Of a DNA stretch of 64,000 nucleotides, positions 8,529 through 53,305 are shown piece after piece (the stretch's first letter is position 1; every line of letters begins with the position of its first letter). The stretch spans positions 13,594,283-13,658,282 of the forward strand of contig JAJEKV010000032.1 of assembly GCA_021234155.1 (NCBI GenBank). The letters are read 5' to 3'. A program made the position numbers and the translations under genes. The notes beneath the pieces were generated by a model. It was given only the letters and a program-made list of their open reading frames with translations, did not search any database and was not told the origin of the DNA. The DNA is from Isoetes taiwanensis. Its lineage: Eukaryota > Streptophyta > Lycopodiopsida > Isoetales > Isoetaceae.

Positions 8529-8588
8529 GGGTAAAAGAAAGCTAGGGTGTCTAAAAAAAATGCCCTTACATTATGTATAATGTAGGGC
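8529..8588 (+). repeat. left TIR of element 1 plus subterminal palindrome
   Basis: The 23-bp TIR is followed at about 8561-8588 by a near-perfect hairpin in which GCCCTTACATTAT pairs with ATAATGTAGGGC. The same hairpin is next to the right TIR of element 2 (about 53242-53269), so this end type is conserved. It is a plausible transposase binding site. Confidence 0.85.
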
Positions 8589-8982
8589 ACGTAGGCACCC
8601 GTTTTTGTTTTTTGTTTTTTTAATTTTAGTTAGTTGGGATATGTAATCATTAGGAATAGCCACGTCAACAATTCAAAATTATGAGTGGCAGTGGCAACCA
8701 GAACGGACCTTCATTGCGATTTTTCGGAGGGAGATTGCGAAGTGTTTCCTCTTTAGGAAAAAAATTTGCCGTCATTCCAATTTTTGGTGTTTCTGTGTGA
8801 TCAATGAAGCAATTCAATTGCAATTTGTTCTTATTCCTCGAAATCCTTGCTCAAGTCCAAGCAATGGACGCCTTTGCCTCCCGGAAGTCACCTAGATTAA
8901 ATAAGAACATGAAAACAGTCGATTCTAGCAAGAAAGCAAAAAAAAAAAAAAACAAGAGGAGGGTTCAAGCATTTGAAGAACC

Positions 8983-9332
8983 TGATAGAACTAGTGCAAA
9001 ACCAGCACAAACCCCGCAAGATTGACTCAAGAGATAGAATGGAAGAACAAGAATGACTCTATTGAGAAAAGGAATAGGAAATACAATCTCTACTTCTGAG
9101 CCTTGCATAGTACATAACATACAATCAATATATACAACCGGTGAGACTAAGAATAGTAGTCTATCGTTTAACCACCGTCCACTAATTACGGCACTGATTT
9201 AGGGTCGGTGCTCAGTGCTGACAAAGCGCTACCTTCTGTACATTTCAGCACCTTCTCAGCACCTGTGTGCTAAGTGCTGAACCACTGCTGTTTCAACACA
9301 TTATGCTTAGTCAGCATATTTATATTCCAACA
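8983..9332 (-). repeat. 3' LTR of the Copia element
   Basis: This 350-bp LTR has TGTTGGAATA at its 5' end and CTAGTTCTATCA at its 3' end when read on the minus strand. It pairs with the LTR at 13862-14210. Confidence 0.95.
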
Positions 9333-9368
9333 CTCTCCCTTAAATGTTGCTGACTAAGCAGAAGAAAA

Positions 9369-11700
9369 TCAGCTGAAACTAAGGTAATTGTTCTCTCCCT
9401 TCAGCTGCAATTTCTTCATGCCCAAACTCTCCTTCACATTGACGAACTTGGATCCAACTAATGGTTTGGTAAAGCCATCAGCAAACTGATCATGTGAGGA
9501 GCAATGAACAAGTTGAGAAGATCCCATTTGGATCTGCTCACGGACAAAACACAAGTGGGTGTCAAGGTGTTTTGTCTTTGGGTGGTACTTAGCATCCTTG
9601 GCAAGATGGATGGTACTTGTGTTGTCACACAATATAATAGCCAAGAATGGAGGTACTTGCAGATCTGTCCACAAATGTTTAAGCCACAACAATTCCTGCA
9701 TCCCAACACTGAGTGCTTTGAATTCTGCCTCCGTGGTGTTTGATTGACATCATGATCTGTCTTTTGTACAACCATGTCGCGACGTTAGGCCCTATGAACG
9801 TGACCATCCTGTTGTGGACCTCCCCGCTATCATGACAATTAGCATGATGCGCATCAACAAAGCATTTGGAAATCGAGGACCTCGATAAAAGAGACCTTCT
9901 GTGAAGTTCCCTTCGGATATGCCGGTAGTCTTTTAGCGACCTTCGGCGATTGCCTGGGATTGCTCATGAATCGCTTTCGGCCTCCCACGGCAAAAGAGAT
10001 ATCAGGTCTAGTGTTTGTGGAGATATATCGGCGCCGCGTACCAAGCCGATAGAGTGTGGGATCACACTCCTCACCATCGAAATCAAGCTCAAGCCTTGTG
10101 CACGAATCAAAAGGACTTGCCACGACCTTGCAATCTTGCATACGATCTTCTTTGTAACATTTCTTTGATATATGGCGAGAAAGATCGATGCCATCCGAAA
10201 GTCTTTGCCACACTTCTACACCTAAACAGTAATGCATAAGGCCAAGGTCAGTCCTCTCGAAGGACGAAGATAACTTCAACTTCAATGTAGAAATCAGCAC
10301 ATCAGCATCTCCTGTGATGATCAAATCATCAACATACAAAACCACAATGCACATTCGGCCTTCATGTGATTTGTAATAAAGATTGGAGTTTGCTGCACTT
10401 CTGTTGAACCTCTGCTCAAGAAAGACGGCATTAATTTTTGTATGCCAACATCTTGGAGCCTGCTTCAAGCCATAAATGCTTTTCTTCAAATGACAAACCA
10501 ATTGCTCCTTCCCTTGAACAACAAATCCTGGAGGTTGAGTCATATAGACCTCTTCCTCCAAATCACCATTCAAAAAAACAGACTTAATGTCCATTTGAAA
10601 CATTAACCAACCTTTCATCGCAGCAAGAGCTATAACTGATCTAATAGTGGACATTCTGGCTACGGGAGCAAAGACTTCATCATAATCTGTGCAAAACCCT
10701 TGGCTACAAGTCTAGCTTTGTGCTTTGACACTGTCCCATCAGCATGAAATTTGGTTTTAAACACCCATGTACAGCCAATAACTTGCTTATCAGCTGGGAG
10801 TTCAACCAATTTCCATGTGCCTTGCTTCAGCAATTGAGAGTATTCTTCTTCCATTGCATGCTGCCACTGCGGATCACTAGCTGCTTCATGAAAGGTTTGT
10901 GGATCAACATGATCCTGGAGCTTTGCCATTAAGGCAAGATTACATGATCCATTAGACTTCTCCTGTTTCTCCATCAGACGTGCTGATCTCCTAGGTTCAA
11001 CAACAGGTACAACAGGTGCTGCAACCGGTTCTGCAACAATTTGTTTCTTCTTGAGAGGTGCTGATCTCCTAGGTTCAACAACAGGAGGTATAGCAGGTGC
11101 TACAATGGGTGCTGTAACAGGTGGATCAGGTGCTACAGTACCTTCATGTGTGCTGGACTCCCTGTGAAAGGAACCAACCTGCTCATGGACCATAGGGCGA
11201 ATGGGATTGGGATCGTCCCGTGCCACTACTTCAGGCAAATATGAGTTCACTAGAGAAACCACTAGAGAAGGTCTACCAGCAGCTCCTATCAGGTCTCCAA
11301 CATCCAAGCTGCTCTCATTGTGAACTGCAGGAGAATCACTGGAAGATATACCATCATACACAGCATCTTCAGCGAACTGAACTGGCCTGCTTACAATAAC
11401 CTGCTTGTTGGAAGGATCATACAACTTGTAACCTCTCTGATTTTCAAGATACCCAATGAAGATGGCTTTGACAGCCCTATCATGCGACTTCCCATACTTT
11501 TTCAGCTTCTCGGCAGGTATGGAAGCATAAGCCAAGCATCCAAACACCCTCAAATGAGACACATCTGGTTTCATTCTCCAAAATGCTTCATAAGGAGTCA
11601 CATCCTGGACTGCCTTAGTAGGCGATCTATTTGCCAAATATGCTGCTGTCACTACTGCCTCTCCCCAAAAAGATTCAGGCAGTTGCTTGTGAATCATCAT
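9369..11700 (-). pseudogene. Copia pol: end of integrase, reverse transcriptase, RNase H
   Basis: Block 11700-10660 begins with the end of the integrase region (HKQLPESFWGEAVVTAAYL) and enters RT (TWVFKTKFHADGTVSKHKAR). Block 10654-9854 holds the RT core (FQMDIKSVFLNGDLEEEVYM, GLKQAPRCWH and the catalytic YVDDLIITGD). Block 9701-9369 is RNase H (ILCDNTSTIHLAKD, YHPKTKHLD). Frameshifts lie near 11700, near 10655-10690 and between 9854 and 9775. The polyprotein is inactive as it stands. Confidence 0.93.
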
Positions 11701-12725
11701 AGATCTTGCAAATCAAGCAAAGATCTATTCCTCCTTTCAGCTACACCATTTTGTGGATGAGCATAAGGAATGATTAACTGTCTTTCAATACTTTCTTCCA
11801 TAAGAAACTCATCAAAGGCATTAGAAATATATTCACCTCCATTGTCACTTCTCAACTTTTTTATTACTAACCATGTCTGCTTTTCGACTGCTGCTTTGAA
11901 GGCCTTGAACTTGCCAAACACCTCAAATTTGCAGTGCAAAGTATACGCCCAAGTGTACCTACTGAAATCATCAATCAGGGTCAAGAAATACCTCTTTCCA
12001 CCTAGTAAAACATCAGGCATATAGCACAAATCAGAATGCAACATCTCAAGAGGTTGAGTTGCTCGATGAATAGCCTGCTGTGGAAAAGGCTGTTGAGGTT
12101 GCTTTCCGAGATGGCATGCAACACACTCAAGCTTGACACATTTCAGAGAGGGAATACCTGTAACCATCTTGTTCTTGTACAAAGCATGTACAGCAGTGCC
12201 TCCAACATGACCAAAACGAGCATGCCACAGATGCTCAGCAGTCAAGTCAGCACATACAAGACCATGTTCAGTCTTATGAACTGAACCATCAAAGACATAC
12301 AAGCCATTCTGCAGCGTCCACTGTGCCATGAACTGCAGACTTTTCAAGTCAATTCCTTCAAGTGGATCCCTGCCCAGCAGATAGGCTTTGCCATTTCCGA
12401 GAACAATGTGATGGCCTGCTTTATCAAATTCAGCAGCAGACATGATATTAGACTGTAATCCGGGAGCAAACATGACATTCCTCACCTTACTAACTACATC
12501 ATGTCCATACAATTGAAAAGCTACAATTTCCTTTCCTGTGATAGGAAGAGAATATCCATCACCCATCTTCACATCACCTCCAGATCGAGGTTCAAGTTCA
12601 GAAAACACATCTAAATCTCTAGTAAGATGAACCGTGGCTCCTGAGTCCAAAATCCAGTCCTTCTGTAGGGTGCTGGCCGCTACTGCAAGATTCAGATATT
12701 CAGCATCAAAAGTGGCACATGCCAC
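11697..12725 (-). pseudogene. Copia protease and integrase
   Basis: The N-terminal part holds the aspartic protease motif (DWILDSGATVHLTRD). The integrase zinc domain follows (HLWHARFGHV with CVACHLGK), then the catalytic core (MLHSDLCYMP, TLIDDFSRYTW, RSDNGGEY). It lies in the same reading frame as gag, separated by a single TGA just after the gag zinc knuckle. A frameshift at about 11700 separates it from the RT block. The single-stop arrangement could be mutation or stop-codon readthrough. Confidence 0.93.
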
Positions 12726-12779
12726 AGCACTTGTCTTTCCCTTAGAGTTGACTGTTGTGCTTCTCGTATCACTACTCTT

Positions 12780-13529
12780 TCAGCTTTGCTTCTCCTTCTT
12801 ACAATTCGAACTGTAGTGACCCTTTTCACCACAATTCCAGCACTTGAACTCCTTGGATTTCTTACCATCAGACTTCACATTTTCTGACTTCCTAGAGTCT
12901 TTGCTATCAGCAAACTTCTTCTTGGTATCAGCCCGAGATGTAGACACAAAATTAGCATGGTCCACTCTCCCATCCCTTTGCTTCTGCACCAACTCCTCTT
13001 GTTGCAGTAGAATGGTTACTTTGGCTATATCAATCTTCTTCTTGTACCTGATCTTCGAAGAGATAATATCATACGAAGGAGGAAGACCAACCAAGATATC
13101 TTGAATCAGCTTTTTTTCAGACAGCACTCCACCAGCAGCCATGTAATCCAAGCGCCATTGCTTCATCTGAGTAAGGTATGCTGTGACAGATTTGAAATCA
13201 CCTAATTGGGCATGTCGCATTTTCTTCTGGATCAGCATTTGGGTAGCCATAACCTTGCTATCAAGTGACTTCTCCAAATGAGACCACATCTCCTTAAACT
13301 CAGTAAAATGGTTGATTTCATGACCAATTGTCTCTTCAGCTAACATTTTGACAAGAGCACAAGCTTTCTGGTTTATCGTACCAGCATATGCTGACTTGGT
13401 GCTGATAAAGTCTTCATCAAACACTGCTCCCATGTCACTAAATATCAAATAATTCATCATGAACTTCTTCCAAGCATGGTAATTATTATTAGTGAGCTTT
13501 GCATTCTGTGAGAACTTGAATGGATCCAT
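12780..13529 (-). CDS. Copia Gag protein
   Basis: The 249-residue frame starts MDPFKFSQNAKLTNNNYHAW, the usual opening of Copia Gag (UBN2-type capsid domain). It ends with a CCHC zinc knuckle (CWNCGEKGHYSSNC) after a basic linker. It is the best-preserved ORF of the element, with no internal stop. Gag forms the virus-like particle and packages the RNA. The ATG at 13529 lies about 320 bases downstream of the primer binding site. Confidence 0.93.
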   Translation of the reverse strand: MDPFKFSQNAKLTNNNYHAWKKFMMNYLIFSDMGAVFDEDFISTKSAYAGTINQKACALVKMLAEETIGHEINHFTEFKEMWSHLEKSLDSKVMATQMLIQKKMRHAQLGDFKSVTAYLTQMKQWRLDYMAAGGVLSEKKLIQDILVGLPPSYDIISSKIRYKKKIDIAKVTILLQQEELVQKQRDGRVDHANFVSTSRADTKKKFADSKDSRKSENVKSDGKKSKEFKCWNCGEKGHYSSNCKKEKQS

Positions 13530-13861
13530 GAATTTCTCCTACTTTCAGCAGCCAAACAAATGGTTGAGAAAACAAATTCGTCACCAAACAAAGCACCCAC
13601 TAGAAAAGTTGAATCTTGAATTTTGTCGCCAAAAAGATCTTGGAAAACTCGAATCGCACACCAGAACTTGCTGGAAAATCCGAATCTCTCTCCCAAAACA
13701 CTTCCTCCAGGCCAAAAAGCAAGAAACTTCTCCAATGCTGCAAATGAGATTTTCCACCACCAAATCTCAGCCAAAGAACTCCTGGAAACGATGGCCAATC
13801 CAATTTGGATGCTTGTCCAATAGCTTGCTCTATTCTTCCCTCAAGAAAGCGTCTGATACCA

Positions 13862-14210
13862 TGATAGAACTAGTGCAAAACTAGCACAAACCCGCAAGAT
13901 CGACTCAAGAGATAGAATAGAAGAACAAGAATGACTCTATTGAGAAAAGCGATAGGAAATACAATCTCTACTTCTGAGCCTTACATAGTACATAACATAC
14001 AATCAATATATACAACCGGTGAGACTAAGAATAGTAGTCTACCTTTTAACCACCGTCCACTAATTACGGTACTGACTTAGCGTCGGTGCTCAGTGCTGAC
14101 AAAGTGCTGCCTTCTGTACATTTCAGCACCTTCTCAGCACCTGTGTGCTAAGTGCTGAACCACTGCTGTTTCAGCATAGTATGCTTAGTCAGCATATTTA
14201 TATTCCAACA
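13862..14210 (-). repeat. 5' LTR of the Copia element
   Basis: This 349-bp LTR flanks the primer binding site. The LTR internal sequence contains short repeated CAGCAC/GTGCTGA motifs (for example GTGCTCAGTGCTGAC and GTGCTAAGTGCTGAAC), which may be promoter elements. Confidence 0.95.
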
Positions 14211-15369
14211 GAACCAGGGCAAAAAAGAAGACTTATTTGTGAAGAACCCGCTGTTGTGGAAGCAAAGCATGTAAGATGTGTCAATGCAGATGAAATTTTT
14301 CCAGATTTACAACAGATCATGGACGAGCAGTGGGGGCCTAAAGACATACGGGGGTTCAAAGAATCTAGCGTGAAGCCAGAGTGGGCTGAAAACTTCTACA
14401 AGCATTATAGAATTGTTTTTGGTAAGCGGGAGGTCACCAATCGCCATGTACCTGAGTACTTTGCTCGTGCCTTTGCCCTTCAATTAACAGGTAAAAAAGT
14501 AGATTGAGATACATTTAAAGTTTTGGCCAAAGATTTGGCAAAGGAAGGAGCAAAAGAATTTGCTATCATAGAAAAAATTGGGACCTCTAAATCCACATCC
14601 AAGGTTTTTAAATTGCAGCAAGGATTTTACCCTAAGGAAGACCTTCAATTTGCAGAAACTCTGTTGCAGCAGTGCCATGGACAATTAATTAGCAGCTCTT
14701 CCAAGGTTGAAGAACTGAAAAATCAGCAGGCAGAATTACGTGACAACATAAATAAGTTTTCAGGAAGAAAGGACGCACATAAAGAGGACCTAGCACAGAT
14801 TCAACAAGACATTGATAGTGTTCTTGACAACGCTAAGCAGAATAAGAGAGACATCAAGAATGTGCAGCAGGAGGTTGACCTTTTGATGAGGGATAGAACC
14901 AGGAAGAAAGAAATGTTGAAGAGAATTCAGGAACCATTGAAGAAAGTCATTCGGGAAAAGGAGTTAATGTGAAAAGAGGATTGCAGAACTTGAGGAGCCT
15001 CATAAAGTTCAGTTTGAGTGCTTTAGACGGCTTGATGATATACATAAGTACATGATGCATTCTGCAGCGATTCTCTTTCAGCCCAAAACAAGCTTAATGA
15101 TCTCTCCAGCTGAAGAAAAATTCATATCTGTGCATGGATATGCTTTTTGTAGTAATGGCTTTGCTAATAATGAACCTATCCCAGTTGCTCCATGCGAGCA
15201 TTCATTTCATATCTTTTGTTTCTCATATTCTATTTCTGCTAGACTATCCTGCCCCAAAGCATGTAAATGGAACGAAAACATTTCAAAGATCTTGGGTGTA
15301 TACACTGGAGATAAGCAGTATTACATAATTTATATTTAATTTGCCGCACCCAGGATTACTGCAATGTAG

Positions 15370-15371
<2 letters not shown>

Positions 15372-15400
<29 letters not shown>

Positions 15401-16765
15401 AGCAAGATATTTATATTTTATGTGTAAACACATTTATTTATGGCTCCAAAGCCAAATAGCCTAAACAGTTCAGCACGATTTTCCCAAAGTGTAGAGAAAA
15501 GGCCAAAACACCATAATAACAATCCACCTCAATCACGGACCCCAATATAGCTGAAGATGATACCCCTTTTTAGATCCACCACCGAAGATGCAAGGGACAT
15601 GAGCATAGAAGTAGATGCTTCATCCCTCGCCTTAACTTGGCCCATATTCTATCTACGCTCAGAGTACTACTGGGAGAATAACAATCATTTAGAGAATATA
15701 TTCTCACCATCTTCGTGTGAGCACAGATATAAATGCCTCCCCCCTAAACGGGGTGGTCCACATCCACCTCCCTTGCCCATGAAGCTCACTTGGGTTGCAT
15801 CTCCCCTGTGCTCTACCCACCAATCTAGCAAGCAGCAATGAGAGCATGTAGTCCTCCCGTCCAATGTCTCATGGAATCAGTAATTGCAGTACAGTGATTT
15901 TGTGATGCAATTTCCTAAAGTCTACACCTCCTTCCAGCTGGGATGGAAGAGGGCTGACATGAAAGAGAAAACCTCCCTCCAAGTTGCAAGTGCTAAAATC
16001 AGTAACAATCATGGCTAAAACATAAACAAGACCACACTGCCACAAACAACCCAAGCTCTCCACAACCACATAGTATCGCTCAAGCTAAAGCCTGCCATGC
16101 TTGAGGTGCCTCCTTTGTACACCCTTAAGTAACTCCGAAACATTTCACACAAAGGTGACTGCTCAAGAACAAGAAGCTAAATATATCCCAACTCCATTCA
16201 ACCATCAGATAAGCCCCTGCAATAATAGCGCCCTTGGATGCTAGCTGAATAAATCCAGTGCCCTCTTCTTGCTGTACCCACCCTGTAGCGAACAGAACCC
16301 TGAACCCTGCAGCAGTGAACATGGGTAATAGGACTGTACAAAACTCGCTCATGCTTGCCCCAACTAGATACCAATGCAAGAACACTCTACTTTGAAAGAA
16401 AGATCTGTTTCATGTCTAGAATAAAACTCAGCCAACTGATAGTGCCCATACCTTCCCCAAAATGAAAACGAATCAGAATACCCTTGAGTTCCTGAGCTGC
16501 AATGAGTGCAGCATCCCTGACTGCAATGAGTGCAGCCTTCCTGACTACAGTGGGTGCAGCCATCTACCACGCTCCAGCATAACCCTAAACCTGAGAAATC
16601 TGACTAGAAATACACATCAAGAAAGGAGAAGGCATACCACTTTGATTGAGGTTTATCCATGGCTACCCATTCTAGTTAATTCGCAGAAGAAGAAACAAGC
16701 AGCTGTTCTGATCATAAATCCTGCGCTGAAGATCTTCTTCGGAAGCTAAGGCGAGCTCCAAAGAA
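15372..16765 (-). mobile_element. poly(A)-tailed retroposon nested in element 1
   Basis: Element 2 shows the intact sequence (its 51700-51760 region), so the insertion is defined by comparison. It begins with 26 T at 15372-15397, which is a poly(A) tail when read on the minus strand. The short sequence AGAA lies at both junctions (15368-15371 and 16762-16765) and may be a target duplication. No protein family is recognised inside. A three-unit minor repeat (TGCAATGAGTGCAGC type) lies at about 16495-16560. It is probably a reverse-transcribed host or LINE transcript. Confidence 0.7.
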
Positions 16766-17329
16766 ATCCATTTACCTGTAGATTGCTGCACTTAAGGTTT
16801 TGCTAGAACATGTAGGAGGACTGGTTATTTATACTTATAGTTCCATGGCTTGCATGTCATACATATATGTGTTTCTTACATACATGTTGTATATTCACAT
16901 TGTAGGGTCCTAGATGTAGAACGTTAATACATAAAATTAGGAGTTGTGTACTGAGTTTTGTGGCAGAATATTTAGAGGTATGTTATGTAATAGAATTGTC
17001 TGATGTGTATATGTGCAAACATTGGAGCACATTTTATGTACATTACGTGTACATTCCGTGTAGATAAATAGCTGTTTACATGTATATGTACTCAAAGTAC
17101 TTCAATGTAGATCAAAACTAGTAATATGTACTGCAGCAGTACACAACAGAATAGTTAGAGACTGATATCTGACTGTTATGTGCCGATTTATTTTTCGAGC
17201 TTCAAAGTGCCAGAAAAACAACTGAGCAGAAATTACACCACAGATCAGGTGCGCTTGTTTTGAAATTGTTTTGCATTGTGTCGGAAGAAGCAATTTCTTA
17301 TTCTTGGTTCGGTTTTCACAGTTTTGGAG
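16766..17329 (+). other. intron-like spacer of element 1 with many GTACAT/ATGTAC words
   Basis: Non-coding in all frames. It contains repeated ACATGT, GTACAT and ATGTAC words, for example at 16861-16890, 17030-17060 and 17075-17105. The same spacer in element 2 is at about 51310-51710. It ends at a TTTTCACAG acceptor-like site at about 17318. Confidence 0.5.
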
Positions 17330-17920
17330 GTTCCAAAAAAATTGAGGTGCAAGATGTAGCCGAGGGAAATAAAGCAGTGATTGAAGGAAAAAGCAAACTC
17401 ACTATTCCTACGGTGATACAGGTTGAGGAAGCTGGCACTTCAAGTGTGCATGGTGACATTCCAGATTATGATGAACTCGAGAGATTGAGAGAGCAGGCTA
17501 AGGCCACATCTGGAAAAGTAAAGGCAGCAGCAGAAAATGTGACTCCAAAGAAGAAGTCCACGCCTAAAAAGGCACAGAAGAAGAAAATAAAACCAGTAGA
17601 AACATGTAAGAAAGCATTTTATTTCAGGGTACAGCATTTGAGAATCCATGACATCCATGTTTACAGGTCCTAATCAAGAGGAATCTTCCGAGCGTGAAGA
17701 TATAGAGCAGGATACTCTTGACTTTGTGGCAAATCTTGCTTCTAGCATAGTAAAGGAGGTTGAAGTTCATGACAATGAGAAATCCGGAGAGGTTGAAGAT
17801 GAGGATTCAGGACCTAAGAAGAATATGAAAAGTGAGGAAACCGAAAAAGAAGGAAAGGAAATGGATACTGACTTCGAGAAAATAGTATCAGAACAACATA
17901 AGAATGATCTTTACAGGTAA
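17320..17920 (+). pseudogene. element 1 charged linker region preceding the Ulp1-like domain
   Basis: Two exon-like blocks. The first (17320-17605) encodes KKIEVQDVAEGNKAVIEGKS and ends in a lysine-rich segment (TPKKKSTPKKAQKKKIKP) resembling a nuclear localisation signal, followed by a GTAAG donor. The second (about 17668-17917) is strongly acidic (SGEVEDEDSGPKKNMKSEET) and ends at CAGGTAAG. Element 2 has the same two blocks at about 51010-51290 and 50551-50800. Probably the N-terminal or linker part of the protease gene. Confidence 0.6.
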
Positions 17921-18022
17921 GTTGATCTACATATCTTACTTTTTTATTTACATCTAGTATCTAAGTTAAAAACTTTAAAATACTATGGATAGTAGTAGAT
18001 GAATGTAGATGAATTTGTATAA

Positions 18023-19070
18023 ATGTACTGGTCATTGAACCCAGACTGCAGTTCTGAATACAGGCCATATGATGCTTTGCTCAACCGAATGAAGGCAAGG
18101 ATCTTTCCTGGATCTTTGCCTGAAATGGAGTGTTATTTATTTGAACAAGATGTGCTGGACATGGATGTTGGAAAATTTTCCAACCGGCATGTGGATATAT
18201 ATGCCAGGTACTGGACTTTGAACTTATTCATTTGTAGTATAAGTCAAGTTAGTAATTCCATCTTTTTCAACTTGTTATAGGTACCTGCAGCTCTGTGTTC
18301 CTGCAGATAAGAAGGCCGACGTCTGGTTCTTCCCACCGGATAGCTTCATGGAATTTGCAGCACACTGCAAGGCAAGCGAAAAAGATAAATCTATGGCAGC
18401 CTTCGAGCGTGGAAGAAATATTGTAAAGGGAGCTCTTACAGGGATAAATTGGCTCAAGTGCAGATGGATTATGATTCCAAAGCTATGTGCCGAACATACT
18501 GGACATCATACGCCATCTTCAACATGACCCTTACTAAGAGTAAGAACACCATAAATATTCAGATCTTCAATTCTGCCGAGAACGTTGACATTGGCATGGT
18601 TACACTTAAAAGGTATTTTGTATTTCACATCTCCTTTTATTAAAGTATATTGAGTAGATTAGATACCATGTTAGCACCTTTTTTCATTCATTTGCTACAG
18701 AGTTGATCTGGTCTTTTGCAGGCTCCACATCCTCACTATGGCACGTGGTTGTGTTGAGTGTCCCACTTTCTTGAAGCATGGACAAAACCCTTCACCAGTT
18801 GTGAAGATTCATAAGTGTCCATAGCAGAAAGATGGGGATTTATGTGGCCTCTATGTTATAGCTTATATGCAAAAGTTTGTAGACACAATCGTGTGTGGTA
18901 AAACTACCAATGTGACTTTTGTCTTGCAAACAAATGGTTTTCAATACTTAGTATCTAAGTATAGTTGTCACATTTGCAGATTACCCGAAACTGGTTCTTG
19001 CCAAAGTATGTGGAGGATCGTCGTGATGTTCTCTTCGGAGCACTACTTCAGGAGTTAGACCACATTCACA
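18023..19070 (+). pseudogene. Ulp1-like (C48) cysteine protease domain of element 1
   Basis: C48 proteases process SUMO or related modifiers. Exon-like blocks give, in order, FEQDVLDMDVGKFSNRHVD (18140-18210), KKADVWFFPPDSFMEFAAHC (18310-18370), WLKCRWIMIPKLC (18450-18490), a His-containing strand near 18500 (HHT), and INIQIFNSAE where the family normally has an Asp. The catalytic-Cys block is at 18815-18895 (QKDGDLCGLYVIAYMQKFVD). The Gln-to-Cys spacing fits the oxyanion Gln and nucleophile Cys of Ulp1. A TAG replaces a residue just before QKDGD here, and the Asp position is Asn in both copies. Blocks are separated by GT-AG-like introns. Confidence 0.72.
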
Positions 19071-19254
19071 TCGCACCCAAAACCATTAGATCACCTCGTA
19101 CTAGTAAATGTGGTTGAGAAAGCCTATCCCCATTGTCACTGCTAAACACTATTTGATTATAAAATATACATTTTTTCATTGAATTTTAATGAATAAAATT
19201 TCTTTTTATTCAACTCCACCATACTTTATTGATAAATTGCATGTTCTTTCATAG

Positions 19255-19898: not shown

Positions 19899-19899
19899 A

Positions 19900-23986: not shown

Positions 23987-24097
23987 GTAGCGTACTTTTT
24001 GCCTGGAAGAACCTAATGTATTAATTTAACAAGCACTAATGCTTTACATAATGGTATAACATAAAATTGCAGGTCCAAACCCAAAAACTCTCAGACC

Positions 24098-39204: not shown

Positions 39205-39239
39205 CACAAGACACCTAAAAATAAAATCGATATGGGTTT

Positions 39240-41190: not shown

Positions 41191-41370
41191 AAAAGCATAT
41201 AAATTTCAAGTTCATAGAAATTTTATATTGCTTCCATGCACAACCATACTACATGGATCTTCATTCTTATGCCATAAATGAATCTGTATAGCCCTTTCAC
41301 CTTCAAAATAATCATGGAGTTCGTGTGGTTCAAAATTAATCCTCCTCATGCATTATTCCAAAAAGTTGTC

Positions 41371-41945: not shown

Positions 41946-42424
41946 CATCATTGTGTATTATTGCACCGAATATTACCCCACATTATCCCCTATTTCTGCT
42001 CTCCATTGTTTGTCCTATGCACAATTGCCAGCTTGTAGCTATCGAACATGAAGCAATATTTGTGCTTATCTGCCTTATGCCATGCGCCATCGTTTTTTCT
42101 TTTCCTTAAAGAATTCGTTGCCATTTTTTATATTATGCATTGTATGTAAAGTGAGCATTTAGACCTTTGGAAATAGCAATTTCAGTAGACATCCATATTG
42201 AGAATGAAAATGACAGCTACAGTGGTTGCAAATTTATTGTCTCCCAAAAGCATGTTCAGAGCTCCCTGCCAATAACACATAACATCTCAAGCACCTTTGC
42301 CATGACTATACCAAAACCTATTGCTATACCTATATCTGCTTGTTTGACATATGCTTTTGCAGGCTGTGGGTGAAGCAAGAAACGTTCAAGGTATCAGCCA
42401 TCAAAAGCTTGAATTTTTGGTTCT

Positions 42425-43470: not shown

Positions 43471-44429
43471 CTTAACTTCATCAATGACAAAAATAGCACC
43501 CAAAAAGTTGATGAACCTGTGCCATACTACAACAGAGATAACAATGAATCAGTACACCATTGACGATTATAAAATAGAAGTTAAGCCGATGTAATGTACT
43601 TGGACAGTGTCTAAATGAAAACCATCAAAATAAGCAAATCTAAAGCATTTGAGATCGGCCATAGAAGCAAAAACTTTACCTTGCGACAATACAAATCCAA
43701 TCTGGCTGTAGCTTGCACAAACTGTCATGCCAGAGCTTTATCAGTAGAAGCAAACATGATCATGAACAAAAACAAAACCTGAATGGCGTACACAAGAAGA
43801 AAAGTGAATAGAGCCGTCTTAAATGAAAAACAGTGAGGCCGTAAAAACTTGTAAATGGGAAAAATAGAGAATATAGGACCTCTTGTGGTTACAGATACAA
43901 ATATTGGATGAGAAATGTAAAAGAAGAGAGCGTATGGGGTCTCTGATGCTGTATGATTCATGGTGTGCAGAAAACGGAAGCAATAGCATACCTGTCTAGC
44001 TCTGCGGCTGAAGCTGGTATCGGATGAATTGCTTCTACATTCTAAAGCTATGGAAGGAGAATCTACATTCATCATGCCTGCTTCCATGATCAGAATCATT
44101 CTTCCGCAGTTTCAAATTGAAGAAAAATAACAGATATTGGACTCGCCAAATTGCTATGGACCATGGTAGAAAGCCTGCAACAACAGAGGAAAAGCAGCGT
44201 CGCCATAGGAAGGCCGTTCGATGTCGTGGTAAAATAAATTTGAGCCGTCGAAATTAGGGCGTGATGCAACATGGTAAAACATTATAATATAGGATAGGAT
44301 AGGATATATTATATTAAAACGAAATTTAAAATGTAGCTTTTACATACATGCTCCAGGATTACTAAAAGCAACATAGAGAAAATTCAGCTGCTTGAGCCAA
44401 TGGGATCGTGCCACATGGCTTTTCTCTTT

Positions 44430-45130
44430 TGTTTTCCTAGACAAAATTTTCTCACGTCATTATGCTCTACTTAACGCTCCAAACTTACCTCACATTCTGG
44501 CAAATTTTATCTTAGATTCCAAGGATTTACCTTGCATTCTTCTCGTCTAAGTTGCATTTAGATCATCTAGTGCATTCTACATTAGCCAAATTTTCTCTAA
44601 GTGGTTTCCATGTAATGGGAATGTCTCTTTGCTTGACATTCCTTTGTGTCAACAATGCCTCCCCTTGATAGCATCGGCATTGTTGCCAAACCCTTCTCAC
44701 ATGTCGTTATTCACCATTTACCCTTTACATCACGTTCCAGCAAAATTACCTTACGTTCTAATGATTCACCTTGCATTCTTCTCATCTAGGTTGCATTCTC
44801 TCTTCTAGCTTGCGTTCTACCTTCACTGAATTTTCTCTAAGTGGCTCTCATGTAATAGAATAGAATAGAATAGTTTTTTTTAACGTCCACGGAGACCATA
44901 CAATGGGCTAGTACAATCATTACTACTAGGATTAAAAAACCCCTGCCTCGAAAGGTTTTCAAGGGAAAAACCTTTGCAGTAATGATGATACTAGACAAGC
45001 GGAAATAATGACTACTGAGGGCTCAGTAATTGCTGACGTTTATCTAGAACCTCATGTAATGGGAATATCTCTTTGCTTGACATTCCTTTGCGTCAACAAT
45101 GCCTCTGCCTGAAGGCATCGGAGGGCAGAG
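44430..45130. repeat. imperfect tandem duplication of about 0.25 kb
   Basis: CACCTTGCATTCTTCTC(A/G)TCTA(A/G)G, TTTTCTCTAAGTGG and TCATGTAAT followed by GGGAATATCTCTTTGCTTGA occur twice, the second copy being split by the 194-bp retroposon at 44857-45050. Confidence 0.7.
44857..45050 (-). mobile_element. SINE-like retroposon, 194 bp
   Basis: The perfect 10-bp direct repeat CTCATGTAAT flanks it (44847-44856 and 45051-45060). The plus-strand left end is a run of AGAAT repeats followed by eight T. On the minus strand it therefore ends in A8 and an (ATTCT)n tail. A variable-length target duplication and a simple tail point to LINE-driven retroposition. I do not see convincing Pol III boxes, so SINE identity is not proved. 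Confidence 0.7.
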
Positions 45131-46699
45131 GCATGTCCACCAACCACGCTTCTCCATATTTTATGTTGAAGAATGTTGAGCAAATTTGAAGTCACCGGTG
45201 GGTAAAGTTTTTACTGCACATTCTTCTTTAACCTAAGATTCTTGCATTTTCATCCCACATCCAGGCATTTTCACCCCATATTTTGGCTGATTCCACCCTG
45301 TTGAATTGTTGTTACCCCTGATTTCACATTGCAACAACACCTCGGTGCTTACTACTTCCACCCTGGATCTTAAGCCCCAAGGTGCCTCACTTTTCATTTT
45401 TTATAAGTGTCGATAATATTTCTTCTTCAGAACCTTAACACTAGGAAAGTCAACTGACAATCTGCTACCATTTGTACGAATTGAAAAGCAAATAAGACAC
45501 TTTCTCAAGGCATCCTTTGAACTCTGGCATGATTTGCTTTAGATCCTACAAATCTCAACAACCATCAAAGCACAACAATGTAATTGCAAATCTCAACGTA
45601 ACACAAGAAGTAAGTACATTCTAATGCAGAACCTTACACTCAAGTTGTTTGTATCTCCATCGTCATGGCTTTTTACTAATTGGCAATGCAATAAACTTGT
45701 TGTAGAACTATGAGAAGTAAGAAAAGAACAAGAATAGTATGAACAAATCACCATAAGACTTAAACAAATTGCATTTATCAACCCTAAATTGCCAACCAAT
45801 TCGAATCATTTTAGTTAAGCACCTAAGACAACACATTGCCAGCGCCACATAAACCCCACCTTGGAGTGGGGCACGCAATGTTACCTGCGTACCCATCTAC
45901 CTATGAAAGACTCATTGCCTCCATTCGCACAGGTGCCCACCGTCTTCGAATTGAGACAGGATTGGGGAGCTATGCCTGGACAGGATTTGTTGGTGTTTGG
46001 ACTTCGGCTTTACGTGATCAAGAATATTTTTTGCATTTTCATCCATATTTGCTATCCAGATCAGTGTAATGTTGTGTAGTAAGAAATCACAAGTTTCATA
46101 GTAATAATAAGCTTTGTTTTGATAAACTATCCAATCAAAATGAGGTATTGGCATCCCTAGTATTCTAGCTCTTAAAGGATCGAAGGCAAGGAACAAAAAA
46201 GGTATGTTATGCTTGGTTGTGGTAGGTGTGCTCATCCATGTTGAACATGTAAAAGAACAAGATCTATTATTATCATAAGGAATTGAGTGTGACTAAGGGT
46301 GAAATATTACTTCGAGCAAGCCCAATCTAGGGACAAAGACTTTCAAAGCCATCACTTTTACTTTCATTGATTTAGGTTTCACACTTGAGGGTTGCATTTC
46401 TAGTCAATGATTCAAATCCAAATGTTGTAAACCCTCATGGTAGAGGTAAGAATCCCCCCATGGGATTAATATGAATCGTCCCATTATTTCTCCTAAGGGT
46501 TATGTAACTTGTAAGTTTATGCCAAGGAGTCCCCCCTAGCAAATTTATAAAAACAACATGGCTTATTAACGACCCCTTACCTTATTGGTTAAGGAAACAA
46601 TTGGGCCTTAAGGTCAATGGGTCAACTGTTGAATTGTAATTGTATACTCTATGATGGAGATATGAGTTCGTCCATGGGTAATAGTACTAATGTATGCAG

Positions 46700-46990
46700 G
46701 AAGAGCGTCTAATGTCTTTATTTTCATGTATATCCCTTGTATTTTATTCCCCATGGAGGTATAAATTTCTCATTGGAATATATTTTTTAATATGATCCTA
46801 GCGATCTTGGTTATGGTATGGTGCCGAAGGGCATGCAAATTAGAAAAGATGCCTTGAGCGCCTAATATATTTATTTTCATGTCTACCCCTTGTATTTTTA
46901 TTCTTTATGGAAGTATGAATCCCCTCCAATGGAGTATATTTTGTCATATGAGCCTAGTCTTCTTGGTTGTGGTATGGTGTCAAGGGGTTG
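46700..46990 (+). repeat. tandem duplication, unit about 151 bp
   Basis: GAGCGTCTAATGTCTTTATT with TTTTCATGTATATCCCTTGT near 46704 is repeated as GAGCGCCTAATATATTTATT with TTTTCATGTCTACCCCTTGT near 46857. Both continue into GGTTATGGTATGGTG / GGTTGTGGTATGGTG. Confidence 0.7.
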
Positions 46991-47079
46991 AATTTTCACA
47001 TGTACTAGTTTTCTTGATATTTTTGTGTAAATCTAACGTCCTTCAAAAAACAAAAAACTACAAAAGACCATATATATAT

Positions 47080-47660
47080 CTATAGTGGTTTGATAGTAAT
47101 TAATTATGACAATAGTTTTTTGGGTGCCTTATGAGTAACCACTGTGAATAGCCACATCCTTTTAGGTAATAACTATGGATAGTTACCATGACAATTAATT
47201 CAGTATTGAAAACCATGCTATAAACCACGATCATTTTGTATCATACAATTTTCATGATAGAAAACTAGCATGAATGACCACCATGGCATTTAAATTGGTA
47301 TAAAAACCATGTCATAAACTACTTCAACTTATGAAAGACAAGTGACAATACAAAACCAATGTGAATAACCATTTCAATATTTAAAGCAGTGTTGCAAACT
47401 ATGCTACAAACCACTTTGTATTTAATAAACCATGGGATGTTAGAGAACCAACATCAATGACCACCATTGATGCTAGAAACCATGTAATAAACTAATATTA
47501 GTTTTACTAAACCACGTTATAACATAAAATCAATATTAATAACCATGTACTCGTTATAAAAACCACTATGTTATGTGGTTCTTACTAAGAATAAAATTTT
47601 TAGCATAAAAAACCACATCTATAGTGGTTCTTTAGAAGTTTATTATAGTGGTTAAAAATT
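47080..47660 (-). repeat. right subterminal repeat region of the CACTA-like element
   Basis: More than ten AACCA(C/T) words, often as ATAAACCAC or AAACCATG, are spread at 20-60 base intervals, ending with TATAGTGGTT twice just inside the right terminus. Such arrays bind the element's DNA-binding protein in CACTA transposons. Confidence 0.7.
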
Positions 47661-47676
47661 TGGGTGCCTTGTGTGG

Positions 47677-47857
47677 TGACAGAGTTATAGCTGGTCATTA
47701 CTATCAACTGCTACAAGGCACAAAGCACAAGTACAAGTTGTTGGATGACAAAATAGTATTGGTACCAGCTGAATCTGTAATTGGAGCAAAGTTCACGATG
47801 CAGCAGGTCAAGCATAAGTTGAAGGGGGCACGTACAGCATATATGATCACACGATAG
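47677..47857 (+). pseudogene. element 2 transposase-like gene, last part after the CACTA-like insertion
   Basis: It continues the frame interrupted at 39204 (GDRVIAGHYYQLLQGTKHKY, then VPAESVIGAKFTMQQVKHKL). It stops at TAG 47855-47857, whereas element 1 continues for about 20 more codons to 20373. Confidence 0.75.
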
Positions 47858-48549
47858 GTGCATGACATGCTTATATCAAGCCTACCTGAGATTGTTGAGT
47901 GCACATGACTAAGTTCTGTACAAAGGAACTTTCATATTTGCCATCATCTTCTGTTATATTGAGAAAACTAGTCGATTGCTGTAAGTTTTTTTGTTATTTA
48001 CTTATTTTTTAATCTGAAGTGCATTTTGATACTTCAATTTCAAAGATTGATACGTGACCAAGCAAAATGTATATCGAAAGTACAAAATGTTTATCAATTG
48101 TTGCATGAAGAAGTTAAACTAGTACGTGTTATGTTGAGAAAACTAGTCGATTGTCGCAAGTTTTTTTCTTATTTACTTATTTTTAATGAAGTGCATTTTG
48201 ATACTTAAATTTGGTATCACACAATATCTTTCGTTTCCAAGCACAATGTATATCGTCGAAAGTACAAAATGTTCATCAATTGTTGCATGAAGAAGTTAAA
48301 CTAGTCTCGTGAACTTGTTCTGTTATAATGGATATCAATAGCTTTTCTTTTGATTCATGAAACAAAGCGAGTAAAGTGGAACATGTATGGAGACAAAAAC
48401 TCTTGTATTACATATCACAAGATATACAACACGGTCATATCGAGGATATGATGCCAATATATACTAGTCTGTTGTTAATGTTTTATATTAACATTAATTT
48501 ACATTCAAAATCTGGTCACAGCCGATGTGAAGCCAGTACATACTATTCT

Positions 48550-49250
48550 GCTATTTCAATATGTTAATTTCTTGCAGCTTGTCCATAGCCTGGACATGCC
48601 ATCTCTGTCCTTGTAGCCCTCTGAAAGCATTTGCCTCCAAACAGCTGTTGTTAGTACATCGGATGGATTGCGTAAAGGATTCCGCTTCACATCTTGTTGT
48701 GTGTCCGGTGCTATCAACAAACCCTCTAGCCATGGTTTGAAGTGTCAAGAGACACGTGTCTTCAACATCACTTTCCCGCCATGAAGGTGGATATATGCAA
48801 TTTTCGTTGGGATTGAAGAGCATCTTGTACTTTCGAGTCGTCTACTATTAGTGTGTTCTTTGTCATTCAATGCGGATACTTCTCATTATATAAACTCAAT
48901 TGGCTTCAGATACAAAGGTTTGTCTTCACTTGCTGCAATCCGGAAAGGCAGCTCCAAACAGTGGCTTCCAACAAAGGTGAACCTTAAGTCCCTTATCTGC
49001 GTCATTGTGAAGATTTTATCCACTACTCTTGATAGGTTCCATGGAGCTATTGATGACTATATTCCTACTTCAAAGTGTTCAAATACAAATTCGTGAATTC
49101 GTCTAGGTGGGACCTTAAAAACAACACTTTCTTGCCTATTATGTCATAATTTCCAACTAGTGATCATCGATACCAAAGTCCTATGTATTTGTTTTGCCAA
49201 AACATTATTGATATCAAACACTATCAACCTTTTCGCATTTACACGATATG
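48550..49250 (-). pseudogene. FCP1/NIF-type HAD domain of element 2
   Basis: The nucleotide copy of 19255-19898 in inverted orientation, with more frameshifts. The block 48823-48551 gives MLFNPNENCIYPPSWRES, the post-motif-IV segment typical of FCP1 domains (NP-x-N-x-I-x-PPS). Upstream parts are readable only in pieces. Confidence 0.65.
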
Positions 49251-49479
49251 AAAGAACATGCAATTTATCAATAAAGTATGGTGGAGTTGAATAAAAGAGA
49301 TTTTATTCATTAAAATTCAATGAAAAAATGTGTATTTTATAATCAAATAGTGTTTAGCATTGACAATAGGGATAGGGTTTTTTCAGCCACATTTATTAGT
49401 ACCGGGTGGTCTAATAGTTTAGGGTGCGATGTGAATGTGGTCTAACTCCTCAAGTAGTGCTCGGGGGAGAACATCACGA

Positions 49480-50400
49480 CGATCAGATGCATACTTTGGC
49501 AAGAACCAGTTTCGGGTAATCTGCAAATGTGACAACAATACTTACATAATAAGTATTAAAAATCATTTGTTTGCAAGACAAAAGAAGTGAGACACTCACA
49601 TTGGTAGTTTTACCACACACGATTGTGTCTACAAACTTCTGCATATAAGCTGCAACATAGAGGCCACATGAATCCCCATCTTTCTGCTTTGTGGACACTT
49701 ATGAATCTTCACAACGGGTGAAGGATTTTGTCCATGCTTCAAAAAGTGGGGACTTTCGACACAACCGCGTGCCATAGTGAGGAGGTGGAGCCTGCAAAAG
49801 ACCAGATCTATTTTGTAGCAAATGAATGAAAGAAGCTGCTAACATGGTATCCAATCTACTCAATATTAATAAAAGGAGATGTGAAATACAAAATACCTCT
49901 TAAGTGCAAGCATGTCAACGTCAATGTCCTCGGCAGAATTGAAGATCTGAATGTTGATGGTGTTCTTACTCTTAGTAAGTGCCATGTTGAAGATGGCCAA
50001 AGTGTGATGTTCAGTAATTCTACATAGCATTGGAATCATGATCCATCTGCACTTCAGCCAATTTATGCCTGTAAGAGCTACCTTTACAATATCTCTTCCA
50101 CGCTCGGAGGCTGCCATAGATTTATCTTTTTCGCTTGCCTTGGCCCATCTTTGCAAATTCCATGAAGCCATGCGGTGGGAAGAACCAGACGTCGGCCTTC
50201 TTATCATCTGGAACACAGAGCTGCAGGTACCTATAACAAGTTGAAAAGGATAAAATTACTAACTTGACTTACACATACAAATGAACAAGTTCAAAGTCCA
50301 ATACCCGGCATACATATCCACATGCCGGTTGGAAAATTTTCCCACATCCATGTCCAGCACATCTTGTTCAAATAAATAACACTCCATTTAAGGCAAAGAT
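49480..50400 (-). pseudogene. Ulp1-like (C48) protease domain of element 2
   Basis: Blocks on the minus strand in order: DVWFFPPHGFMEF-type sequence near 50170, INWLKCRWIMIPMLCRITEH and HHTLAIFNMALTK (50060-49980) with INIQIFNSAE, then QKDGDSCGLYVAAYMQKFVD (49690-49610). The catalytic Cys motif is intact here (DSCG), unlike element 1 (DLCG). The expected Asp is Asn again (FNSAE). A frame change just before QKDGD disconnects this block from the preceding exon. Confidence 0.72.
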
Positions 50401-50550
50401 CCTAGGAAAATCCTTGTATTCAGAACTGCAGTCTGGGTTCAATGACCAGTACATTTACACAAATCATCTACATTCGTCTACTACTATCCATATTATTTTA
50501 AAGTTTTTAACTTGGATACTAGATGTAAAAAAAAATGTAAGAAATGTAGA

Positions 50551-51290
50551 TCAAGTTACTGTAGAGATCATTCTTTCTGCATTCACGATCTTGTTTTCTG
50601 AGTCAGTATCCATTTCCTTCCCTGCTTTTTTGGTTTCCTCACTCAGATTCTTATTAGGTCCAGAATCCTCGTCTTCAACCTCTCCTGATTTCTCGTTGTC
50701 ATGAAATTCAGCGTCCTTTGCTATGTCAGAAGCAATATTTGACACAAACTTAAAAGTATCCTGCTGTACATCTTGATGCTCGGAAGATTCCTCTTCATTA
50801 GGACCTGTAAACATAGGATGTCATGGATTTCTCATTTCTTTGTATTAATTGAAATAAAATGCTTTCTTACTGTTTCTACCGCTAATTGTCTTCTTACGTG
50901 GCTTTTTAGGCGTGGAGTTCTTCTTTGGAGTCACATTTTCTGCTGCTTTGCCTTTTACTTTTGAAGATGTGGCCTTAGCACGCTCCCTCAATCTCGAGTT
51001 CCTCGTCATAAACGGAATGTCACCATGCGGACTGAAGTGCCGAGCCTCCTCAACTGTATCACCGCGGGAATAGTGATTTTGCTTTTTCCTTCAATCTTTG
51101 CTTTCTTTCCCTCGGCTACATCTTGCACCTCAATTTTCTTTGGAACCTCCAAAAGCGTGGAAAACCGAACCAAGAATAAGAAATTTGCTGTACTTCGACA
51201 CAATGCAAATTGAATTTGAAAACAAAGCGCACGATGCGTGGTGTAATTTCGCTCAGTAGTTTTTTTTGGCACTTTGAAGCTCGAAAATAA
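50551..51290 (-). pseudogene. element 2 charged linker region
   Basis: This is the inverted copy of 17320-17917. Acidic block SGEVEDEDSGPNKNLSEET is at 50720-50640. The upstream block KKIEVQDVAEGKKAKIEGKS lies at about 51150-51090, and the lysine-rich TPKK segment near 50900-50940 is only partly readable. Confidence 0.6.
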
Positions 51291-51723
51291 ATCACATATG
51301 ATCGGATATCGGGTCTCAAACTAATGGGTCTCTAAGCGTTACGTACATATCAATATTTGTACATATTACTAGAACTGTTCTACATTAAAAGTACTTTGAG
51401 TACATACACATGTAAACGACTATTTATCTAGATGGAATGTACATGTAATGTACATGAATGTGCTCCAATGTATGCACATGTACACATCAGACATTACATA
51501 AAATACCTCTAAATGTTACGCCACAAAACTCGATTACACAACTCCTAATTTTATGTATTTAAGTTCTACATTTAGGACCCTACTTTGTGAATGTACAACA
51601 TGTATGTAAGAAACACATATATGTATGACATGCAAGCCAAGGAACTATAAGTATAAAATAACCAGTACACTCCTACATGCTGTAGCAAAACCTTAAGTGC
51701 AGCAATCTACATGTAAATGGATT

Positions 51724-52973
51724 CTACATTGCAGTAATCCTGGGTGCAGCAAATTGAACATAAATCATGAAATCTTGCTTACCTCCGATTGTACACACCC
51801 AAGGTCTTTGAAATGTTATCGTCCCATTTGCATGCTCTTGGGCGAGGATAGTCCGGTGAGAAATAGAATATGAGAAACGTAAGATATGAAATGAATGCTC
51901 GCATGGAGCAACTAGGATAGGTTCATTATTAGCAAAGCCATTCTTGCAAAACACACATCCATGCACTGATATGAATTTTTCTTCATTTGGAGAGATCACT
52001 AAGCTTGTTTTGGGCTGAAGGAGAATCATTTGCGAGAATGCATCATGTGTCTGCACACTCAAACCTGAACTTTGTGAGCCTCCTCAAGTTACGCAATCCT
52101 CTTTTCACATAACTCCTTCTCCCGAATGGCTTTCTCCAATGGCTCTGAATTCTCTTGACATTTCTTCCTTCCTGGTTCTATTCCTCATCAAAGGTCAACC
52201 TCCTGCCGCAGTCTTGATGTCTCTCTTATTACGCTTGGCGTGCCGTCGAGAACACTATTGATGTCTTCTTGTATCGTGCTAGGTCCTCTTCATGTGCATC
52301 CTTTCTTCACGAAATCTTATTTATATTGTCACGTAATTGCGCCTGCGCTGAATTTTCAGTTCTTCAACCTTGGATGTCTTTGCTAATTAACTCTCCATGA
52401 CACTGCCGCAATGAGTTTACGCAAATTCAAGCTCTTCCTTAGGGTAAAATCCTTGCTGAAATTTAGGAACCTTGGATGTGGATTTAGAGGTCCCAATTTT
52501 TCTTACGTAATAGCAGATTCTTTTGCTCCTCCCTTTGCCAAATCTTTGGCCAAAACTTTAAAAGTATCCCAATCTATTTTTTTACCTGTCAATTGAAGGG
52601 CAAATGCACGAGCAAAGTACTCAGGTACATGGCGATTTGTGACCTCCCGCTTACCAAAAACAATTTCATAATGTTTGTAGAAGTTCTCGGCCCACTCTGG
52701 CTTCACGCTAGATTCTTTGAACCCCCGTATGTCTTTGGGCCCCCACTGCTCGTCCATTATCTGTTGTAAATCTGGAAAAATTTCATCTGCATTGACACAT
52801 CTTACATGCTTTGCTTCCACAACAGCGGGTTCTTCACAGATAAGTCTTCTTTTTGGCCTTGGTTCCTCAGAAGTTTGAACCTTCCTCTTGTTTTTTTCGG
52901 CTTTCTTGCTAGAATCAGCTATTTTCAAATTTTTGTTTAATCTGGGTGACTTCCGGGAGGCAAAGGCGTCCAT
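51724..52973 (-). pseudogene. element 2 coiled-coil/RING-like protein gene
   Basis: The first block (52973-52503) is uninterrupted and starts MDAFASRKSPRLNKNLK; it spans the point where the Copia element inserted in element 1 (EEPRPKRRLICEEP) and keeps the Trp (KKIDWDTFKVLAKD) mutated there. The coiled-coil region (52500-52080) has several frame changes. The RING-like block (52062-51780) has SVHGCVFCKNGFANN and VAPCEHSFHI, but the last ligands are altered (no CPKAC). Overall a broken copy with a good N-terminal half. Confidence 0.8.
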
Positions 52974-53305
52974 TGCTTGGATTTGGGCAAGGATTTCGAG
53001 GAAGAAGAGTTACAGTCGAATTACTTTGTTGATCACTCACGAACACAAAAAATTGGAACGGCGGCAAATTTTTTTCCTAAACAGGAAACACTTCGCAATC
53101 TCCCTCCGAACAATTGCAATGAAGGTCTGTTCTGGTTGCCACTGCCACTCATAATTTTGAATTGCTGACGTGGCTACTCGTAATCATTACATATCCCAAC
53201 TAACTAAAATTCAAAAAAAAAACAAAAATGGGTGCCTACATGCCCTACATTATACATAATGTAAGGGCATTTTTTTTAGACACCCTAGCTTTCTTTTACC
53301 CAATA

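Follow-up and report, generated by a model that had tools for sequence, protein, structure and literature searches.

Probably Sola-like, GGGT-ended transposons of Isoetes taiwanensis carry a conserved accessory gene block facing the transposase

Three related transposons in the window

The stretch of DNA analysed here, referred to as the window, comprises 64,000 nucleotides of the Isoetes taiwanensis genome (assembly GCA_021234155.1, contig JAJEKV010000032.1; C1037:13594283-13658282). It contains three DNA transposons, designated E1, E2 and E3, that are bounded by terminal inverted repeats (TIRs) and 4-bp target-site duplications (TSDs), and in which a transposase gene faces, tail to tail, a second block of coding sequence. 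E1 and E2 had been recognized in an original prediction made from the sequence of the window; E3, a diverged element of the same kind lying between them, had been missed and was detected by a scan of the intervening region for TIRs with a 4-bp TSD. The elements, their ends and the insertions within them are the following (window coordinates).

8525-8528, no strand: left copy of the E1 TSD TATA
8529-23761, + (strand of the accessory gene): element E1, TIR DNA transposon with a nested copia element and one further insertion; 23-bp perfect TIRs, TSD TATA
8529-8551, +: left TIR of E1
8983-14210, -: copia long terminal repeat (LTR) retrotransposon nested in E1; LTRs at 8983-9332 and 13862-14210, 95% alike
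15373-16764, no strand: 1.4-kb insertion in E1 relative to E2
23739-23761, -: right TIR of E1
23762-23765, no strand: right copy of the E1 TSD TATA
25670-25673, no strand: left copy of the E3 TSD TAAT
25674-33106, +: element E3, diverged; 15-bp TIR, TSD TAAT, same gene layout as E1 and E2
33107-33110, no strand: right copy of the E3 TSD TAAT
36026-36029, no strand: left copy of the E2 TSD AATA
36030-53301, -: element E2, inverted relative to E1 and sitting in a gypsy frame; TIRs, TSD AATA, empty site reads through
39205-47673, no strand: 8.5-kb insertion in E2, delimited by the E1/E2 alignment and interrupting the transposase gene in its 3' part
53302-53305, no strand: right copy of the E2 TSD AATA

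The TIRs of E1 and E2 are perfect over 23 bp and identical in both elements, and the match extends to 24 bp in E2. These ends, together with the TSDs TATA and AATA, agree with the original prediction, as does the description of E1 and E2 as inverted full-length copies: the two lie in opposite orientation, and five alignment blocks (85.7-92.5% identity) cover them from one end to the other except for the nested insertions. The claim that E2 splits a gypsy frame was likewise upheld, the 150-base flanks joined with a single copy of the TSD giving one uninterrupted gypsy reading frame. At the empty site of E3, a histone-H3-like frame continues across the joined flanks, with a stop about 40 codons further on.

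E1 and E2 owe their extra length to nested material: in E1 a 1.4-kb insertion as well as the copia element, in E2 the insertion of 8.5 kb. A search of the latter for terminal repeats recognized none; it contains internal tandem repeats at 42440-43463. In E3, a 215-bp unit is present in three tandem copies (29749-30393) between pieces of the transposase gene.

Ends, target duplications and subfamilies in the genome

The genome searched consisted of 1,658,258,908 bases in 1110 contigs. The exact TIR pattern of E1 and E2, from which G at the fifth flanking base was excluded, gave 127 forward and 117 reverse matches, compared with 0 and 0 for the reversed control. Pairs of facing ends less than 30 kb apart were drawn from the first 100 of these 244 ends. 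Exact 4-bp TSDs flank 22 of the resulting 25 pairs, against about 0.1 of 25 expected with random bases, and the remaining three differ at one or two bases. The family of large GGGTA-ended TIR elements with 4-bp TSDs that had been proposed from two copies, with the advice to tabulate the target duplications and shared ends of the others, is thus borne out by its genomic members. Two parts of the proposal needed correction. The TSDs are not confined to A and T: three of the 22 exact ones consist of A and T alone, and A/T makes up a fraction of 0.66 of the TSD bases, compared with 0.61 in the window. Moreover, although both large elements are real, the usual length is about 9 kb and not 15-17 kb (8.6-9.14 kb in 16 of the 25 pairs).

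The TIR of E3 gave 57 and 58 matches in the two orientations (1 and 2 for the control), and a sister copy of E3, locus L016, is 95% identical to it end to end and has the TSD TCAT. A search of the genome with the transposase core yielded 7766 first-look candidates, a rough count, as are all first-look counts given here; the 150 that were scored showed 52-100% identity and open frames of up to 629 amino acids. Loci L001-L030 and L037-L048 are a non-random sample: they were selected among the scored hits, in most cases because of long open frames, and the fetched stretches were trimmed to fit the expected gene layout. When 15 of these loci (L002-L016) were scanned for TIRs with GGG ends, a TIR with an exact TSD was found in seven; in L011 the TIR is flanked by a TSD with one mismatch, and the other seven (L002-L007, L015), a number of them truncated or interrupted by insertions, gave nothing convincing. 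A scan of nine loci (L008-L016) from which the GGG condition had been removed returned the same GGGT ends as the best solution in seven.

GGGT is the start of E1, E2, E3 and the seven loci resolved by the TIR scans. Five TIR types can be distinguished, represented by E1/E2, E3/L016, L008, L009-L011 and L012-L014; the TIRs measure 15-30 bp, and the usual element length is approximately 7.1-9.1 kb depending on the subfamily. Loci L009 and L010 share 95.7% identity across 7.1 kb and differ in their TSDs, which favours comparatively recent movement. There is good support for a family of TIR transposons that have GGGT(A) ends and duplicate 4 bp of target, and the group is larger and richer in genes than had been claimed at the outset.

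The transposase and the facing accessory block

The coding regions recognized in the three elements are listed below.

14217-14960, +: N-terminal domain and coiled coil of the E1 accessory gene, found by profile; the copia insertion cuts off the first part of the gene, which lies to the left
15101-15336, +: E1 RING-like finger region; Pfam zf-RING_11 at 2.9e-4, below cut-off, with the Cys/His pattern seen by eye
18255-18965, +: E1 Ulp1-like (C48) protease region; custom ULP profiles at 3.2e-8 and 4.4e-10, with a relative in L007 over the Pfam C48 cut-off
19236-19856, +: E1 NIF/FCP1-type phosphatase domain with motif DINNV; PF03031 at 2.1e-8, over cut-off
20379-23519, -: E1 transposase gene, frame-broken, from profile matches and open reading frames; N-terminal part at about 22812-23519, core with WSDGC and HGKGEHDG, C-terminal Cys part
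25796-26879, +: E3 accessory gene, from open reading frames; N-terminal domain, coiled coil and, at the end, a RING-like finger below the Pfam cut-off
27877-28230, +: E3 NIF/FCP1-type phosphatase domain with motif DLNGV; PF03031 at 2.5e-10, over cut-off, span taken from the profile
29253-32767, -: E3 transposase gene in pieces, from profile matches; core at about 30441-30803
36272-39211, +: E2 transposase gene, N-terminal part and core, frame-broken, from profile matches; the last part resumes at 47669-47851 past the insertion
48598-49236, -: E2 NIF domain remnants, found by profile
49531-50240, -: E2 Ulp1-like region, found by profile; His (EHHT) and Cys (DGDSCGLYV) motifs
52420-52904, -: E2 accessory gene, N-terminal domain and coiled coil, found by profile

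The long open copies of the transposase encode 551-629 amino acids and are preceded by a separate N-terminal part of about 250 amino acids. Conserved features are DFxENY, SD...H, WSDGC..Q(F/Y)K and HGKGxHDG, with Cys clusters on both sides of the core. The Asp of DFxENY is kept in 21 of 22 matches and the Asp following HGKG (HGKGxxDG) in all 29; the core exons are 41-46% identical between subfamilies. Judged from the order of these motifs, the transposase would be an RNase H-fold DDD/E enzyme with candidate catalytic residues in DFxENY, WSDGC and HGKGxHDG. Searches with the transposase gave nothing over cut-off in Pfam, including no integrase or MULE (Mutator-like element) match, and no match among PDB sequences. 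No relative was found in IMG/VR or among the GTDB genomes by searches that were each seeded with two short peptide patterns and can miss distant relatives. Animal proteins are known that contain similar DFxENY, WSDG and HGKG motifs; these are a lead only and not a result.

The layout in which the transposase lies tail to tail with the second coding block is common to all five TIR subfamilies. This block opens with a conserved N-terminal domain, which is followed by a coiled coil and a RING-like finger and then, depending on the subfamily, by Ulp1 and/or NIF, both of which are present in E1 and E2. The Cys and His residues of the finger follow RING-H2 spacing, by eye, in L009 and E3. Locus L007 passes the cut-off for Peptidase_C48 (PF02902; 22.7 bits versus 20.7), and Ulp1 in E1 and E2 themselves is matched by the custom profiles only. 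These profiles also match L001, L005-L008 and a neighbouring copy in L014; they were built from L006-L008, so that the matches in those three loci arise by construction.

Linkage, active-site motif and selection of the NIF domain

The Pfam cut-off for NIF is passed in E1, E3 and L004. A convergent transposase was present in all eight loci chosen from the hits of a search with the NIF domain of E3, L014 keeping its N-terminal side only, and in 11 of 14 further chosen loci within the 3.3 kb taken, giving 19 of 22 for both sets together. As a control, no transposase was present within 1.5 kb on either side of the six top-scoring hits of the Pfam NIF model, which resemble ordinary host genes (0/6), nor was there one in three of these controls extended to 4.5 kb downstream (0/3), L041 and L047 being positive as expected in the same run. 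Open frames near 300 amino acids occur among the 150 scored hits of the E3 NIF search.

Twelve middle-ranked Pfam NIF loci comprised five with the transposase, two DxD genes without it and five genes, also without it, of a second repeated group with the motif DMNGVLL. The idea that every repeated NIF gene is part of this transposon was tested on these loci and rejected. The DMNGVLL group is represented by L039, L042, L043, L046, L048, L049 and L050; the transposase was not found in the 3 kb downstream of the five genes just mentioned, nor in the 8 kb upstream of the two loci examined in that direction. In L049 and L050 the NIF gene lies downstream of long frames that are seemingly related between both loci, and the group possibly belongs to another multi-gene mobile element.

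Standard phosphatases of the NIF/FCP1 type have the active-site motif DxDx(T/V). In the element-type domains, Asn occupies the position of the second Asp in 22 of 22 cases and the nucleophile Asp is kept in 21; an overlapping set gave Asn in 12 of 13, with L005 as the exception. Ordinary NIF genes of the same genome have DxD (8/8). The NIF profile matches UBLCP1 (1.2e-8) and CTDNEP1 (3.8e-4), and in the alignment with CTDNEP1 the Asn falls on the second Asp of DLDET. With the nucleophile retained and Asn in place of the second, general-acid Asp, the domain is more likely to be a phosphatase that is impaired or traps its substrate than one that works efficiently.

Selection was assessed by the ratio of nonsynonymous to synonymous substitution rates (dN/dS) on the 22 NIF domains that span upwards of 110 profile positions; fragments and L016 were excluded, as were pairs with dS above 1.2 or fewer than 90 codons. 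The median dN/dS was 0.19 (range 0.16-0.27) in 27 pairs with dS of 0.3-1.2, which are non-independent as they mostly contrast the same two lineages, and 0.32 in 31 pairs with dS of 0.1-0.3. An earlier run with longer frames had given a median of 0.44 (122 pairs of mixed dS). In one pair of transposase exons with dS of 0.42 the ratio was 0.16. The element NIF domain shows a purifying-selection signal at higher divergence.

Neighbouring features

The histone-H3-like frame interrupted by E3 extends over 24060-25764 of the window, the break lying after 25673, and is located upstream of a gypsy-type gag recognized by eye. This window copy has no Pfam match. A related frame in L004 (L004:7451-8587) encodes 379 amino acids with MARTKQTARK near the start and matches Pfam Histone at 3.5e-28. 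A search with its histone part gave 9144 first-look candidates, of which the 150 scored were 89-100% identical with frames of up to 468 amino acids. The frame has the appearance of a histone H3 borne on an LTR retrotransposon that is abundant in this genome.

Elsewhere in the window, the stretches 1069-1526 and 61461-61923 are 76% alike at the DNA level, and the second of them encodes a RING-H2 protein, ATL-like by eye, at 61414-61944. A remnant of the long interspersed nuclear element (LINE) type is found on the minus strand at 54217-58256, with frames resembling endonuclease and reverse transcriptase by eye.

Proposed mechanism and alternative explanations

The ends, TSDs, gene order, linkage, motif change and selection signal on NIF are direct observations, and the elements probably represent a Sola-like group of cut-and-paste transposons with a 4-bp TSD and an accessory module, the fold and catalysis of the transposase and the functions of the module being putative. 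According to the mechanism we propose, the transposase would bind the TIRs beginning with GGGT and excise the element, and insertion would take place through a 4-bp staggered cut that shows little preference for sequence; the accessory module may tune the host during transposition. Within this module, the targets of the RING finger and Ulp1 could be ubiquitin or SUMO marks on repair factors or the transposase complex, and NIF might bind phosphoproteins, either as a weakened phosphatase or as a phosphoprotein trap. DNA transposons are usually viewed as needing little beyond a transposase; the conserved ubiquitin-, SUMO- and phosphatase-type gene block beside it suggests that these elements bring their own tools of cell regulation. 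We regard as tentative, and on balance doubtful, the stronger proposal that transposition depends on an element-encoded RING ligase, a SUMO-type protease and a DxN FCP1-like phosphoprotein trap or reader, perhaps directed at the RNA polymerase II tail or at repair factors, in a deeply diverse group of superfamily level.

Several observations weigh against the mechanism proposed first. In the frame that it now has, the E3 copy of the window is without the Asp of DFxENY, which its sister L016 has. AlphaFold models of the transposase from three window rows reached a mean predicted local distance difference test score (pLDDT) of 35.6 and 46.6, which leaves the DDE fold without structural support, and a Foldseek search of PDB with the second low-confidence model gave no match at E 0.001 or better, as is expected from a poor input model. 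All RING matches fall below the Pfam cut-offs. The profile scan found no Ulp1 in E3, L009-L013 and L016, and no NIF in L006-L008, and therefore neither is needed for movement in general. Three of the 14 further NIF loci had no transposase in the fetched stretch, the DMNGVLL genes are repeated NIF genes that stand apart from it, and the element-type NIF of L005 reads EIQG, neither DxD nor DxN. Finally, the median NIF dN/dS rises to 0.45 in 71 pairs with dS of 0.02-0.1, and transposase exons gave 0.82-2.03 in seven pairs with dS of 0.02-0.04; higher ratios at low dS are expected because most new copies decay after insertion.

Pack-type elements are known to capture pieces of host genes, and the accessory genes could similarly be passive passengers, captured host NIF, Ulp1 and RING pieces with no role in transposition. 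The variation of Ulp1 and NIF among subfamilies, the altered NIF motif and the presence of other NIF genes with DxD in the same genome agree with such an origin, which we nevertheless consider unlikely, given that order and orientation are constant across subfamilies whose transposase cores have diverged so far, that purifying selection is detected at higher dS and that long NIF frames have stayed open. As to the identity of the elements, we lean neither way on whether they are members of the published Sola superfamily (Sola1, 2 or 3) that have grown by gene capture and that Repbase may already list under that name, a reading that is compatible with the mechanism proposed above. It accounts for the 4-bp TSDs, and the size, TIR length and occurrence in a seed-free plant agree with the account of Sola in the passages of PMC10741241 drawn on here; in the excerpted part of PMC3627910, Sola2 is reported with AT-rich 4-bp TSDs and captured Fanzor genes. 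Against it stands that the transposase gave no match over cut-off in Pfam and none in PDB, IMG/VR or GTDB, and no description of a Sola transposon with Ulp1 was found in the searched library of openly licensed papers. The gene content as a whole, which the original prediction had not known to be described, was not found there either, Repbase and subscription papers lying outside that search.

It is highly improbable that the elements are the known Ulp1-bearing transposons of the Mutator or Ginger1 type, even though Ulp1 is reported in both and Ginger1 also has 4-bp TSDs (PMC2836005, in part). The TSDs of Ginger1 are CCGG or CCGT/ACGG and its ends TGTNR, according to the same excerpt, whereas none of the 22 exact TSDs has these sequences and the ends are GGGT. 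Mutator was rejected since its TSDs span 7-12 bp in the cited passages of PMC10741241, compared with the 4-bp duplications directly beside the TIRs here, and since the transposase has no integrase or MULE match in Pfam. Two further superfamilies were rejected on their ends or targets. Kolobok duplicates TTAA, which is found in none of the 22 exact TSDs, and the termini of CMC elements (CACTA/Chapaev) are CAC..., whereas E1, E2, E3 and the seven resolved loci start with GGGT.

A RING/Ulp1/phosphatase-like module that stays in place across strongly diverged subfamilies and is under purifying selection would open a direct way to study how a transposon interferes with the ubiquitin, SUMO and phosphorylation signalling of its host while it transposes. 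Being abundant, with 7766 rough first-look candidates, the group is also relevant to genome annotation: apparent C-terminal domain (CTD) phosphatase or Ulp1 protease genes in this genome can be transposon genes.

Comparison with known systems

Of the superfamilies described, Sola comes nearest in TSD, TIR and size. In the passages of PMC10741241 concerned, Sola elements are mostly 2-9 kb long, some exceeding 15 kb, with TIRs of 11-1124 bp, and are present in the moss Physcomitrella and apparently uncommon in flowering plants; the TIRs of 15-30 bp and lengths of about 7.1-9.1 kb found here fall within these ranges, and 4-bp TSDs were observed in 22 of 25 pairs, in E1, E2 and E3 and in 7 of 15 further loci. 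Captured genes are reported for Sola2 (PMC3627910, in part). In contrast, the excerpts of both papers do not mention RING, Ulp1 or NIF for Sola, and the TSDs here are mixed, whereas those reported for the Sola2 elements of Dictyostelium and Polysphondylium are AT-rich.

Ginger1 shares the 4-bp TSD and, in some members, an Ulp1 protease, and a role of its Ulp1 and OTU on ubiquitin or SUMO marks has been suggested (PMC2836005, in the part cited). Apart from the ends and TSD sequence, Ginger1 is unlike the present elements in that a Gypsy-integrase-type transposase is fused to the protease, whereas here the protease belongs to a separate, convergent block. Mutator-like elements with Ulp1 (same excerpt) are similar in carrying an Ulp1 gene and differ in TSD length and transposase, as noted above. 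With the phosphatases FCP1, SCP, UBLCP1 and CTDNEP1, the element NIF domain has in common the profile matches to UBLCP1 and CTDNEP1; it is distinguished from them by DxN in place of DxD and by being borne on a transposon.

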